64,000 nt of DNA. It comes from Marinobacter sp. (GTDB taxonomy: Bacteria; Pseudomonadota; Gammaproteobacteria; Pseudomonadales; Oleiphilaceae). Positions 24,362-52,036 of the stretch are shown here, in pieces (position 1 is the first letter of the stretch; the number at the start of each line of letters is the position of its first letter). Position numbers and translations under genes: made by a program. Below the pieces are notes generated by a model. That model had not been told where the DNA came from and made no database searches. It was given only the letters and a program-made list of their open reading frames with translations. The stretch lies in NCBI GenBank assembly GCA_018402255.1, contig JAGYIS010000008.1, positions 434,001 to 498,000 of the forward strand, in the 5' to 3' direction.

Positions 24362-24471
24362 GTGGAGGCCGGGGCGTGCCTTCCAGGACACGCTACGAGC
24401 ACATCCATGTGCGCTTGTTTCGGGCCGTCCTTGGCCCTCAACAGTCCTGGAAGGCACGCCCCGGCCTCCAC
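24362..24471 (-). repeat. GGA-hairpin element A (between bioB and bioF)
   Basis: Perfect 28-bp inverted arms (24362-24389 and 24444-24471) enclose a core with two small hairpins. Read on the minus strand their loops are CAAGGACG and CATGGATG, with the GGA triplets 24 nt apart. It begins 17 nt after the bioB stop. The strand given is the one carrying GGA loops. Confidence 0.85.
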
Positions 24472-24524
24472 GCCAACGCTGGCAGGATTTTCAGGTACCA
24501 TTGATTGGGTAGCCGGTGTTCCAA

Positions 24525-25713
24525 ATGCGCGATTTTGCCCACGAAATTGAACAACGAAAACAGGCTGGTCTCTACCGAACCCGCCGCCTGATTTCCGGCC
24601 CCCAGCAGCCAGTGCTGACGGCAGACGGCGATCCGCTGTTGTCGTTTTGTAGTAACGACTATCTGGGGCTTGCCAATCATCCCGACAATATTGCCGCTTT
24701 GACCGGTGCGCTGCCGAAAACCGGCTTGGGCGGGGCTGCGTCACATCTGGTTTGCGGTCATCACAATGCCCATCATCAATTGGAAGAGCGTTTGGCGGCG
24801 TTTACTCAGCGCAGCTCAGCATTGTTCTTCTCGACCGGTTATATGGCCAATATGGGGGTAATTTCCGCGCTCGCGGGACGTGGCGACACGATTTTTTCCG
24901 ATCGACTTAATCATGCTTCGATCATTGATGGCTGCATTCTCAGTCGGGCGCGGGTTCGGCGTTACGCCCATGGTGATGTTGCTGCGTTAGAGTCGATGCT
25001 GGCTGAGACCTCAGGCCACAAGCTGGTGGTGACGGATGGGGTGTTCAGTATGGACGGCGATGTGGCGCCGTTGAAGGCGTTGGCCCGGGTCTGTAAAAGC
25101 CATGACGCGCTGCTGGTGGTGGACGATGCCCACGGGATTGGGGTGTGTGGTCCACAGGGTCGGGGCAGTGTTCTGGAGGCTGGAGTTGTCGGAAGACGAC
25201 GTGCCGGTGCTCATTGGCACCCTGGGTAAGGCGGTGGGCACCAGCGGTGCGTTTGTGGCCGGGCCGGCGGTGTTGATGGATTATCTGGTGCAGAAGGCCC
25301 GGACGTACATTTACACCACGGCAATGCCGCCCGCATTGGCGGCGGCAACCTGTGCGAGTCTGGATATTATTGAGGCCGAGGATGCGCGGCGTGCGCATCT
25401 GAATAGCCTGATTGCGCGTTTCCGGTCGGGGGCGGAGCAGTTGGGGTATGAATTGATGCCATCCCGGTCGCCGATTCAGCCGATCATGGTCGGTGGCAAT
25501 CAGGAGGCGCTGGCTCTGAGTCAGGTTCTTGAGCGGCAGGGGGTTTTGGTGACCGCGATTCGGCCACCGACCGTGCCGGCAGGTGAGGCAAGATTGAGAG
25601 TGACGCTGAGCGCTGCCCATACTTGCGAGCAAGTGGATCAGCTGTTGACGGCTCTGGCGCAGAGTCGGGCGTTGCTTTCGGGTAGGAAATCTCCGTCGGT
25701 GGCGTCGCTATGA
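24525..25713 (+). pseudogene. bioF: 8-amino-7-oxononanoate synthase BioF, interrupted by a 1-nt frameshift
   Basis: PLP enzyme that condenses pimeloyl-ACP with alanine in biotin synthesis. The first frame (from ATG 24525; a GTG three codons earlier is also possible) runs through FCSNDYLGLANHP, ASHLVCGHHNAHHQLEE and VVDDAHGIGVCGPQGRGSVLE. It then goes out of frame at about 25179; the remainder continues in another frame from LELSEDDVPVLIGTLGKAVG to the end at 25713. One extra G (or two missing bases) at 25178-25180 explains this. The PLP lysine (GTLGKAVG) lies beyond the shift, so the uncorrected product would be inactive. Both halves are otherwise well conserved, so a base-call error is as likely as a real mutation. 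It overlaps bioC by ATGA. Confidence 0.88.
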
Positions 25714-26537
25714 GTGTGTTTACCGACCTGATGGCGATCAATTGTACGGACGGTGGTACAGGATCCAAGCAGTCTATTGCCCGGGGCTTTGGCAACGCTT
25801 GTCACACCTATGACAGCGCATCCCGCCTGCAAAAAAGCATGGGCGACAGGATGTTGGCTCGCATTCCGGCTGAACTGAACCCCGGCATTGTGCTGGACCT
25901 GGGTTGCGGCACCGGCTGGTTTACCCGAAGGCTCGCGGCAAGGTATCCGAAGGCGGAGATCACCGGTGCCGATCTGGCTCCTGGAATGTTGGAGCAAGCG
26001 AGGATTACTGGCTCTGATGCGGTGAATTGGCTAAACGCTGACGCCGAACAATTACCGTTGGCGGATCAGAGCGTTGATCTGATTTTCAGTAACCTGATGA
26101 TTCAATGGAGTCCCCGTCCCGAGGTCGTTCTTGCAGAGTGCCGAAGAGTGCTGGCGCCCGGCGGTTTGCTGGTTGTTTCTACCTTGCTGGATGGCACCCT
26201 GAAGGAGCTCAAACAGGCCTGGTCGAAAGCAGATCCGGGGCAGGCCCATGTTAACCGGTTTGCTCCACACAAAGATTGGCGAGTTCTGACGGCAGATACT
26301 CTTCCCGGCTCAGAGCTTGAGGTAGACGCCATCGTGTTGCCCTATGACTCGCCAATGGCACTGAACCGGGAGCTCAAGCATCTCGGGGCGGTGTTCAGGG
26401 GCGAAGAAAGGCGCCGGACGGTTACGGCGCCAGGGCGTTTTCGGGCGATGTGCCGGGCCTATCCGCATGGCGATGATCACGAATGCCTGGCGACTTACCA
26501 GGCAGGCTGGTTGTATTGGCGCAAGCCTGCACTCTGA
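25710..26537 (+). CDS. bioC: Malonyl-ACP O-methyltransferase BioC
   Basis: SAM-dependent methyltransferase that caps malonyl-ACP so the fatty acid machinery can build pimelate; 275 aa. It has the N-terminal IARGFGNACHTYDSASRLQ segment typical of BioC, motif I VLDLGCGTGW (about residues 51-60), GADLAPGML and FSNLMIQW. It overlaps the bioF stop (ATGA). No bioH esterase gene lies between bioF and bioC, unlike the Pseudomonas bioBFHCD order, so demethylation of pimeloyl-ACP methyl ester must be done by a gene elsewhere. Confidence 0.94.
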   Translation: MSVFTDLMAINCTDGGTGSKQSIARGFGNACHTYDSASRLQKSMGDRMLARIPAELNPGIVLDLGCGTGWFTRRLAARYPKAEITGADLAPGMLEQARITGSDAVNWLNADAEQLPLADQSVDLIFSNLMIQWSPRPEVVLAECRRVLAPGGLLVVSTLLDGTLKELKQAWSKADPGQAHVNRFAPHKDWRVLTADTLPGSELEVDAIVLPYDSPMALNRELKHLGAVFRGEERRRTVTAPGRFRAMCRAYPHGDDHECLATYQAGWLYWRKPAL

Positions 26538-26551
26538 ACAGGAAAACTGAG

Positions 26552-50286: not shown

Positions 50287-51627
50287 ATGACCGAGAAAAC
50301 ACAAGATGCTGCCCTGGGCGGCAAAGTGGGCTTCATCAGCCTGGGCTGTCCCAAGGCACTGGTAGACTCTGAGCGTATTCTGACCCAGCTGCGGCTGGAT
50401 GGTTACGAGGTGGTGCCAACTTACAATGATGCAGACATTGTAGTGGTGAACACCTGTGGCTTCATTGATGCGGCCAAGCAGGAATCCCTGGACGCAATTG
50501 GCGAAGCCATCAGCGAAAACGGCAAGGTGATCGTTACCGGCTGCATGGGCGCTGAAGCCGACAAGATTCGTGAGACCCACCCGGGCGTACTGGCCGTATC
50601 TGGCCCTCATGCCTATGAAGAGGTGGTTGGCTCGGTTCACCAGTATCTGCCGCCGAAAAAAGATCACGATCCCTTTGTCGATCTGGTTCCACCCCAAGGC
50701 ATCAAACTGACACCGCGGCATTACGCTTACCTGAAGATCTCCGAAGGCTGCAATCATCGCTGCACCTTTTGCATCATACCTTCCATGCGCGGCGATCTGG
50801 TCAGCCGGCCGATCGGGGATGTGATGGACGAGGCCAAGCGGCTAGTGGATGCCGGGGTAAAAGAGCTGTTGGTGATCTCTCAGGATACCTCTGCGTACGG
50901 TGTCGATATTAAATACCGCACCGGTTTTTGGCAGGGCCGTCCGGTCAAAACCAAGATGCAGTCTCTGTGCGAAGCTCTTGGCGAGATGGGTGTTTGGGTT
51001 CGTCTGCACTATGTGTATCCGTACCCCCATGTGGACGACATCATTCCGCTGATGGCAGAGGGCAAGATCCTGCCTTACCTGGATATCCCATTCCAGCACG
51101 CCAGCCCGAAAGTGCTCAAGGCCATGAAGCGCCCGGCCCATGACAGCAAAACCCTGGACCGCATCCGCAAGTGGCGGGAAATCTGCCCAGAGCTGACTAT
51201 CCGGTCGACGTTTATCGTTGGCTTCCCCGGTGAAACCGAGGAAGATTTCCAGTATCTGCTGGACTGGCTCGACGAGGCGCAACTGGATCGCGTCGGCGCG
51301 TTCACCTACAGTCCGGTCGAGGGTGCCAAGGCCAACGAACTCGAAGGTGCCGTGCCGGAAGAGGTGAAGGAAGAGCGCCTGGCCCGGTTCATGACCAAAC
51401 AGGCCGAAATCTCCGCAGCCCGTCTGCAGGCCAAGATCGGAAAGACCATTGATGTGCTCATCGACGAAGTCGACGAAGAAGGCGCCATCGGCCGCTCAAA
51501 AGCCGATGCGCCGGAGATCGATGGCATGGTCTATCTGAATGATGAAACTGACCTGGTTCCTGGCCAAATCGTCCAGGCCGTCGTCGAGCATGCCGATGAG
51601 CATGACCTTTGGGCTCGATTGGCCTGA
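50287..51627 (+). CDS. rimO: Ribosomal protein S12 methylthiotransferase RimO
   Basis: Radical SAM methylthiotransferase acting on Asp89 of ribosomal protein S12; 446 aa. N-terminal cluster cysteines lie in SLGCPKALVDSE, NTCGFIDAA and TGCMGAE. The radical SAM site is CNHRCTFC (about 158-165) and a TRAM domain ends the protein. It shares its architecture with MiaB. Followed by elements G and H. Confidence 0.97.
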   Translation: MTEKTQDAALGGKVGFISLGCPKALVDSERILTQLRLDGYEVVPTYNDADIVVVNTCGFIDAAKQESLDAIGEAISENGKVIVTGCMGAEADKIRETHPGVLAVSGPHAYEEVVGSVHQYLPPKKDHDPFVDLVPPQGIKLTPRHYAYLKISEGCNHRCTFCIIPSMRGDLVSRPIGDVMDEAKRLVDAGVKELLVISQDTSAYGVDIKYRTGFWQGRPVKTKMQSLCEALGEMGVWVRLHYVYPYPHVDDIIPLMAEGKILPYLDIPFQHASPKVLKAMKRPAHDSKTLDRIRKWREICPELTIRSTFIVGFPGETEEDFQYLLDWLDEAQLDRVGAFTYSPVEGAKANELEGAVPEEVKEERLARFMTKQAEISAARLQAKIGKTIDVLIDEVDEEGAIGRSKADAPEIDGMVYLNDETDLVPGQIVQAVVEHADEHDLWARLA

Positions 51628-51669
51628 TGGGCGGCGCTCAGGCCCCAGTCTTCTGGGCCTGGAGGTGGC

Positions 51670-51780
51670 TGCCTTGGCGGGTAGAACCTCCCAAAAAACG
51701 CCCGTGAATACGTCCCTGTAGGGCTTCGTCGCGCCATCCCTGGCGCTCCAGATTTTTGGGAGGTTCTACCCGCCAAGGCA
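51670..51780 (-). repeat. GGA-hairpin element G
   Basis: Perfect 28-bp arms (51670-51697, 51753-51780) with A5/T5 inner ends. Minus-strand loops are CAGGGATG and CAGGGACG; GGA spacing 24 nt. The 54-nt core is almost identical to that of element D, whereas the arms differ outside GGCGGGTAG. Confidence 0.88.
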
Positions 51781-51912
51781 CCGGTCCCGCTTTTGGTGGG
51801 GTAGTCGTTAATAACCCCGCTGCCATCTCAAACATCGTTTCAATGCAGAAGGCCAGAGACGATAGAGGTTTCCAATCTCAGTGCGTGGTTTTTGCGGACT
51901 ATTGCTGAGAGG

Positions 51913-52036
51913 TTTGGCAGGGTGGGTTTGGGGCCCCTTCCCAAAAATGTGCGGAGCCATGGATGGCGGAGCCCAAGCGCACATGGATGTGCTTGTAGCG
52001 TTTTTTGGGAAGGGGCCCCAAACCCACCCTCCCAAA
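51913..52036 (+). repeat. GGA-hairpin element H
   Basis: 35-bp arms (51913-51947, 52002-52036) with one mismatch, the longest in the window. Both plus-strand loops are CATGGATG; GGA spacing 24 nt. Inverted relative to element G; it ends 50 nt from the gatB stop. Confidence 0.88.

Follow-up and report, generated by a model that had tools for sequence, protein, structure and literature searches.

A stretch of 64,000 nucleotides from Marinobacter sp. (contig JAGYIS010000008.1, positions 434,001 to 498,000; the window hereafter) carries eight elements in which a long outer stem encloses a core with two small hairpins. What are these elements, and do they act as DNA or as RNA? With moderate confidence, we read them as copies of a dispersed intergenic repeat of the TwoAYGGAY kind (Rfam family RF01731), which is likely to be a strand-specific structured RNA whose hairpins are predicted to bind CsrA (RsmA).

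All eight elements lie at the positions given by the original prediction, and all fall outside genes according to our own open reading frame (ORF) caller. In the reference orientation used here, the core starts with ACGC and ends with about CACA, and the strand with the GGA loops (the AYGGAY strand, called the GGA strand) is the opposite one. Elements A, B, D, F and G stand in reference orientation on the plus strand, and C, E and H on the minus strand. The strands listed below are those of the GGA strand.

24361..24472, minus strand: element A; two 29-nt stem arms and a 54-nt core; RF01731 28.8 bits.
37975..38084, minus strand: element B, left of pair B/C; core 52 nt; no RF01731 match at E ≤ 1.
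38132..38241, plus strand: element C, right of pair B/C; core 52 nt; no RF01731 match at E ≤ 1.
42766..42878, minus strand: element D, left of pair D/E; core 55 nt; no RF01731 match at E ≤ 1.
43003..43115, plus strand: element E, right of pair D/E; core 55 nt; RF01731 29.0 bits.
44662..44776, minus strand: element F, single; core 57 nt; RF01731 30.5 bits.
51669..51781, minus strand: element G, left of pair G/H; core 55 nt; no RF01731 match at E ≤ 1.
51919..52030, plus strand: element H, right of pair G/H; core 54 nt; RF01731 34.7 bits over 51907-52042.

The long outer stem described at first was folded by RNAfold on either strand of all eight elements. Measured outward from the core, it extends over 23-29 bp in seven elements, none of which has more than one mismatch, and is weaker in element B, in which 13 unbroken pairs are followed by scattered mismatches. 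The two inner hairpins are present in most of the folds, except that the ACGC-side hairpin is ill-formed in some (for example those of B and G on the plus strand). Core length is nearly constant, as had been claimed, ranging from 52 to 57 nt across the eight elements. Core subtypes do exist, but there are more than the two originally recognized: 82 distinct cores occur among 96 copies in the same genome (the own genome), and a given site may hold different subtypes in different species. In a MAFFT alignment of the eight elements, 93.7% of the structure cells pair, and nine pairs are changed on both sides. None of 500 shuffles of these eight copies reached the observed values for paired cells, for pairs changed on both sides, for cells so changed or for the covariation score; a fifth measure, further pair types, was not above the shuffles (10 versus a mean of 11.1). 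The inner 3'-side hairpin pairs in 73% of cells in this alignment, a value lowered in part by two misaligned rows.

A covariance model of the eight window elements (R1; 73 positions, 18 pairs), the search proposed with the original prediction, recovered a repeat family, nearly always intergenic, with about 100 copies in the own genome. At least 98 matches were obtained at E ≤ 1, of which 96 had E below 1e-4; this count is a lower bound, 150 of 563 candidates having been scored. Two weak matches (C3:694352 and C4:7424) were left out of most counts, leaving 96 copies. R1 also matched all 37 sampled genomes of the genus, with 3 to at least 85 matches per genome, 4 of 21 genomes from the rest of the order, all belonging to different families, and 47 of 274 genomes of a class sample (46 besides the own genome, among 273 others). 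In named genomes, a pattern scan gave at least 120 stretches; among the 80 listed, the genera with loci that R1 also matches include Methylotuvimicrobium, Ectothiorhodospira, Stenotrophomonas, Shewanella, Alcanivorax, Halopseudomonas, Rheinheimera, Thioalkalivibrio and Marinimicrobium.

By our ORF caller with codon log-odds, 94 of 97 own-genome matches are intergenic: 33 lie between tandem genes with the GGA strand sense, 26 between tandem genes with the GGA strand antisense, 23 between convergent genes and 12 between divergent genes. Two of the other three overlap low-scoring ORF calls, and C4:268498 overlaps the end of a better-scored one. For 125 matches in other genomes of the genus, the corresponding numbers are 31, 38, 44 and 3, with 3 more overlapping genes and 6 left unassigned.

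The inner hairpins and their geometry recur in these further copies. The distance from GGA to GGA, described as fixed in the eight elements, is 23-25 nt in 95 of 96 own-genome copies and 22 nt in the remaining one. On the GGA strand, both loops read CANGGANG, near-invariant and 23-25 nt apart in the own genome, where the 5' loop has the form C-A-N-GGA-T/C-G and the 3' loop C-A-N-GGA-N-G. Throughout the genus, the C-A before and the G after are nearly fixed and the position just before GGA is free. Both loops contain GGA in 94 of the 96 own-genome copies, in 122 of 125 from elsewhere in the genus and in 99 of 106 from other genera, the spacing being 22-28 nt; the loop-choosing script favored GGA, R1 itself favors the core, and for 80 of the 99 other-genera loci the search pattern had fixed the 3' (ACGC-side) loop on the GGA strand in advance, leaving the 5' loop free.

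The outer stem is conserved in length and pairing. Of the 96 own copies, 91-100% are Watson-Crick paired at stem positions 1-21 and 78-88% at positions 22-28, far more than chance would give; beyond this edge the figure is 66% at position 29 and 32% at position 30, and stays at 19-38% from 30 to 45. This fall past position 28-29 gives the stem a set length of about 28-29 bp. In the own copies, sequence information is low at positions 13-15 and 20-29 (0.07-0.62 bits of 2), yet these positions are paired. In copies elsewhere in the genus (n = 123), pairing is 68% at position 28, 43% at 29 and 14% at 30. Copies from other genera (n = 109) have mostly unrelated stem sequences, and their pairing falls between positions 28 and 31, an edge favored by the fitting of their register, in which shifts of up to 4 nt were allowed across 29 positions. 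A weak boundary or target motif accompanies the stem in the genus (TTTGG on the left, CC..AAC on the right), and none was seen in the flanks of the other-genera copies.

The original prediction had not recognized the elements as a named repeat class, and at gathering scores no Rfam family matches in the window. At relaxed scores, element H matches RF01731 over its full length, below the cut-off of 43 bits and on the strand opposite to the reference. The family mir-642 outscored TwoAYGGAY for this element (37.7 versus 34.7 bits, and also by E-value), yet its cut-off is 90 and it scored both strands alike; this match was rejected as a consequence of the long near-perfect hairpin. In the own genome, RF01731 gave 45 matches at E ≤ 1, weak for most, one of which (43.8 bits) reaches the cut-off, so the repeat is not unnamed; a match to a described family is one of the outcomes that the original prediction had listed as refuting it. 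All 45 contain an R1 match, always on the opposite strand; elements A, E, F and H of the window are among them; and alignment of the best copy to the Rfam consensus places each inner hairpin on one of the AYGGAY hairpins there. RF01731 matched none of 14 control genomes. Since RF01731 matches 45 copies and only one passes the cut-off, these results indicate that the repeat is a divergent, high-copy branch of TwoAYGGAY and not a new class.

Like TwoAYGGAY, the repeat has two tandem short hairpins with GGA loops and a long external closing stem of poorly conserved sequence, and it occurs in gamma-proteobacteria. Unlike TwoAYGGAY, it has T, G, A or C before GGA and not Y alone, and is about 112 nt long, as against 168 positions in the Rfam model. 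Weinberg and co-workers (2010, PMC2864571) classed TwoAYGGAY as probably RNA and probably not cis-regulatory, with occurrences in human gut, gamma-proteobacteria and Clostridiales; Rfam types it as Cis-reg. Gardner and Eldai (PMC4333381) proposed that it binds CsrA and described its external stem as poorly conserved, and Rfam 15 places it among the families with improved structure (PMC11701678). In the class sample, RF01731 matched 18 of 274 genomes, 13 of them over the cut-off. R1 misses five of the six loci fetched for the best RF01731 matches (L402-L406), indicating that the two models cover different branches. At L402, L405 and L406, one hairpin of the RF01731 match has a GGA loop and the other an ACGAC-like loop, and these loci are a possible one-site branch of TwoAYGGAY.

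Mismatches in the stem distinguish the two strands, as A:C on the reference strand is G-U on the GGA strand. If the duplex alone were important, A:C and G:T mismatches would be expected in equal numbers. Instead, A:C exceeded G:T by 156 to 41 in 219 distinct genus copies, and by 122 to 32 in 151 non-redundant copies (81 own and 70 others, of 221). Per element, 78 of the non-redundant copies lean to A:C and 12 in the opposite direction (sign test, 5e-13). In 76 non-redundant copies from other genera, the ratio is 80 to 12 at positions 1-25 and 94 to 34 at positions 1-28. The bias is not a quirk of one arm, because both A:C orders are enriched; in the own copies it lies mainly in the stem's outer third (58 versus 20 at positions 20-29), with even numbers at positions 1-12. 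When the non-redundant set was divided by context, the ratios were 46:3 between tandem genes with the GGA strand sense, 29:12 with it antisense, and 34:7 between convergent genes. The difference between sense and antisense copies has a Fisher value of 0.004, as a single comparison picked after viewing the data. Taken together, these counts indicate that folding is required of the strand with the ANGGAN loops, and that transcription direction modulates this requirement. Folding of single-stranded DNA would explain the strand but not the effect of orientation; since the bias depends on gene orientation, selection at the RNA level fits it better, and this is how we read it.

The ANGGAN hexaloop is a known binding target of CsrA/RsmA. 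The ANGGA motif is also named in PMC9788540. Each hairpin of the repeat has an ANGGAN loop and is predicted to bind CsrA (RsmA). The element would be read as RNA mostly by read-through from neighboring genes, as suggested by the missing promoter signal described below; one CsrA dimer may bridge both hairpins, and the long stem would protect and present them. Overall, each element would control or protect its host transcript locally, and about 100 copies together would form a dispersed CsrA sponge. With CsrB, RsmY and RsmZ the repeat shares hairpins with ANGGA loops; unlike them, it has two sites per unit, about 100 units per genome and no promoter signal of its own. The RsmZ model was uninformative, scoring 26.7 bits in the own genome (cut-off 44) and matching weakly in 8 of 14 controls. 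A stronger version, which we think rather unlikely, is a sponge distributed over the whole genome, the double CsrA hairpin on its 29-bp stem having been seeded into about 100 intergenic sites, such that read-through of almost any transcript adds predicted CsrA sites. Titration of CsrA would then be coupled to global transcription and not to one dedicated small RNA, and inverted pairs would offer one copy in binding orientation whichever direction the transcript crosses.

Several results weigh against a CsrA-binding RNA of the TwoAYGGAY kind. The orientation of copies to tandem genes is random (26 versus 32, p 0.51, without a weak duplicate), so that about half of the tandem copies are GGA-antisense to both neighbors, and yet the bias is still held there; between divergent genes it is absent or reversed (4:10, in eight elements). 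Upstream of the elements on the GGA strand, no sigma-70 promoter signal was found (mean -0.23 relative to shuffles, versus +0.71 for genes). Predicted sigma-70 scores of at least 8 occur upstream of 10 of 209 elements (5%), as against 21% of 150 gene upstream regions, and by this prediction most copies lack a promoter of their own such as CsrA-sequestering RNAs have. As to the family assignment, 44 of the 45 RF01731 matches fall short of the gathering score, and 51 of 96 copies lack a match at E ≤ 1. In favor of CsrA binding, a CsrA gene was found in all 34 genomes searched, including the own genome, which has one; against it, in the class sample, 4 of 46 element-bearing genomes are without it, one of which (G252) is near-complete (98%, eight matches). 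As CsrA is present in 235 of 274 class genomes, its co-occurrence with the element counts for nothing, and a comparison limited to near-complete genomes (35 of 36 element-bearing versus 212 of 236 overall) has no power.

The main rival explanation, which we regard as a minority possibility, is that the repeat is miniature mobile DNA resembling repetitive extragenic palindromic (REP) sequences and REPINs: the GGA strand would fold when single-stranded and be recognized by a transposase acting in trans, and the pairs would be the mobile unit. High and variable copy number within one genus and random orientation to genes agree with this, as does the arrangement of the pairs. In the genus, close pairs (starts less than 400 bp apart) always consist, by reference orientation, of a plus copy followed by a minus copy, in 13 of 13 cases in the own genome and 19 of 19, partly orthologous, in other genomes of the genus (32 of 32 in total); in other genera, at least seven R1 pairs have the plus-minus order and one pair (L316) the opposite. 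Equal-score runs inside single genomes (G124), tandem arrays in L302 and L249, and copies that look swapped at some orthologous slots point the same way. Among other genera, tandem runs of the element occur in L302, L249, L279 and L316. The runs of single orientation (2+3 copies in L302 and 4 in L249, about 150-180 bp apart) are unlike the inverted pairs of the genus.

The resemblance to REP sequences suggested by the original prediction extends to arrangement, since both occur between genes in many copies and in inverted pairs, often next to unidirectional or convergent genes; it stops at the end tag and the transposase. REPs measure 20-40 bp, their stems 5-13 bp, and they end in a GTAG or CGTC tag (PMC3733652), whereas the repeat here is about 112 bp long and has two inner hairpins. 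Many cores contain the letters GTAG and CGTC (TACGTCC, CTGTAGG), though not as an unpaired end tag as in REPs, and the flank profiles of the genus and of other genera show no such tag at the stem ends of the 112-bp unit. In the own genome, no gene for a REP-associated tyrosine transposase (RAYT) is flanked by the repeat: the sole Y1_Tnp gene found lies in an element-free 3.3-kb locus, with no element within 1.5 kb. Relatives L101, L103, L110, L111 and L113 have another palindromic repeat, GTAG-like (CGTAGGTCGGATTA...TAATCCGACCTACG), in their D/E or G/H spacers; in the corresponding spacers of the window none was seen. Two further points speak against REP-like DNA: the wobble bias varies with gene orientation, and many positions, orientation included, persist between species.

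In 20 relatives, the orthologous site is filled in 15 for element D, 16 for E and 13 for F (14 if a weak displaced match in L112 is counted), always in the same orientation; the L104 site is shifted, as its contig ends. In G032, the closest relative by one protein, both flanks could be mapped for 21 own elements, and 17 of these have an orthologue; of the other four, one is half deleted, one is absent and two are at a 5-kb rearrangement. Conversely, 6 of 23 G032 elements with own sequence on both sides are missing in the own genome. The losses resemble deletions, in one case with short direct repeats at either end, and the sites inspected included no clean empty site or target duplication as would be expected of mobile DNA. 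Inverted target duplication was rejected as the source of the outer stem, since element-less sites keep no clear single arm (site 1 is ambiguous). At site H of L103, the core and inner stem are deleted between direct repeats TGGGAG and an outer hairpin remains; in the H orthologue of L111, the 3' hairpin is split by an insertion of about 80-90 nt, itself partly palindromic. The flanks of 51628-52086 (G/H) are about 5 kb farther apart in G032 and G005 than in the window, pointing to an insertion in those genomes or a loss in the window.

In 31 orthologous comparisons, 147 double changes keep the pair, 61 changes are one-sided and 10 are other double changes. Random own-genome copies share 12.9 of 28 stem pairs, and a few orthologous comparisons (14-16 shared) are no closer, so that whole copies were probably swapped there. 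The double substitutions are accordingly weaker support than they appear, being partly due to whole-copy swapping. The repeat may once have been mobile, with a CsrA-binding RNA as its cargo, in which case the mobility and RNA readings may both be true. One spacer contains a further conserved feature:

42879..43002, no strand assigned: D/E spacer; tract beside D, TGCAGGCC...ACAAG / TGTGCAGGCC...AAAAACAAG.

This tract is conserved among orthologues, while most of the D/E spacer varies (14 aligned sequences, window included), and is possibly the promoter of the leftward gene or operon.

A two-way transcription terminator or 3'-end RNA stabilizer, in which the long stem alone would act in either direction, is improbable. 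The stable stem and random orientation would suit such a role, and some copies fill convergent gaps, leaving 8-32 bp on each side (for example C7:339890, C3:148879, C7:60939, C6:138579). However, no U-run follows the stem on the GGA strand in the flanks of the genus (T 6-9% at +5 to +9) or of other genera, a few copies lie just past an existing terminator-like hairpin, 12 of 94 copies lie between divergent genes, and a plain stem would fix neither CANGGANG in both loops nor the strand bias. That the elements are chance or neutral quasi-palindromes, kept perfect by template-switch repair and having no selected function, is disfavored as very improbable: template switching or copy replacement could yield the excess of double over single changes at orthologous sites (147 versus 61), but would not conserve both loops across the class or bias mismatches by strand.

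No description of the repeat was found in the literature searched, and none of six core strings occurred in it, most subscription papers lying outside the reach of these searches, so that absence is unproven. As far as they show, the size of the branch, the stem ruler, the polarity of the pairs and the strand evidence are new. An abundant intergenic repeat of gamma-proteobacteria is thereby tied to a catalogued RNA family of unknown function, with comparative evidence for which strand works and for the importance of its orientation to transcription. The 2014 prediction that TwoAYGGAY binds CsrA becomes testable in culturable bacteria, and the possibility is raised that a repeat family, and not a single small RNA gene, buffers a global regulator.

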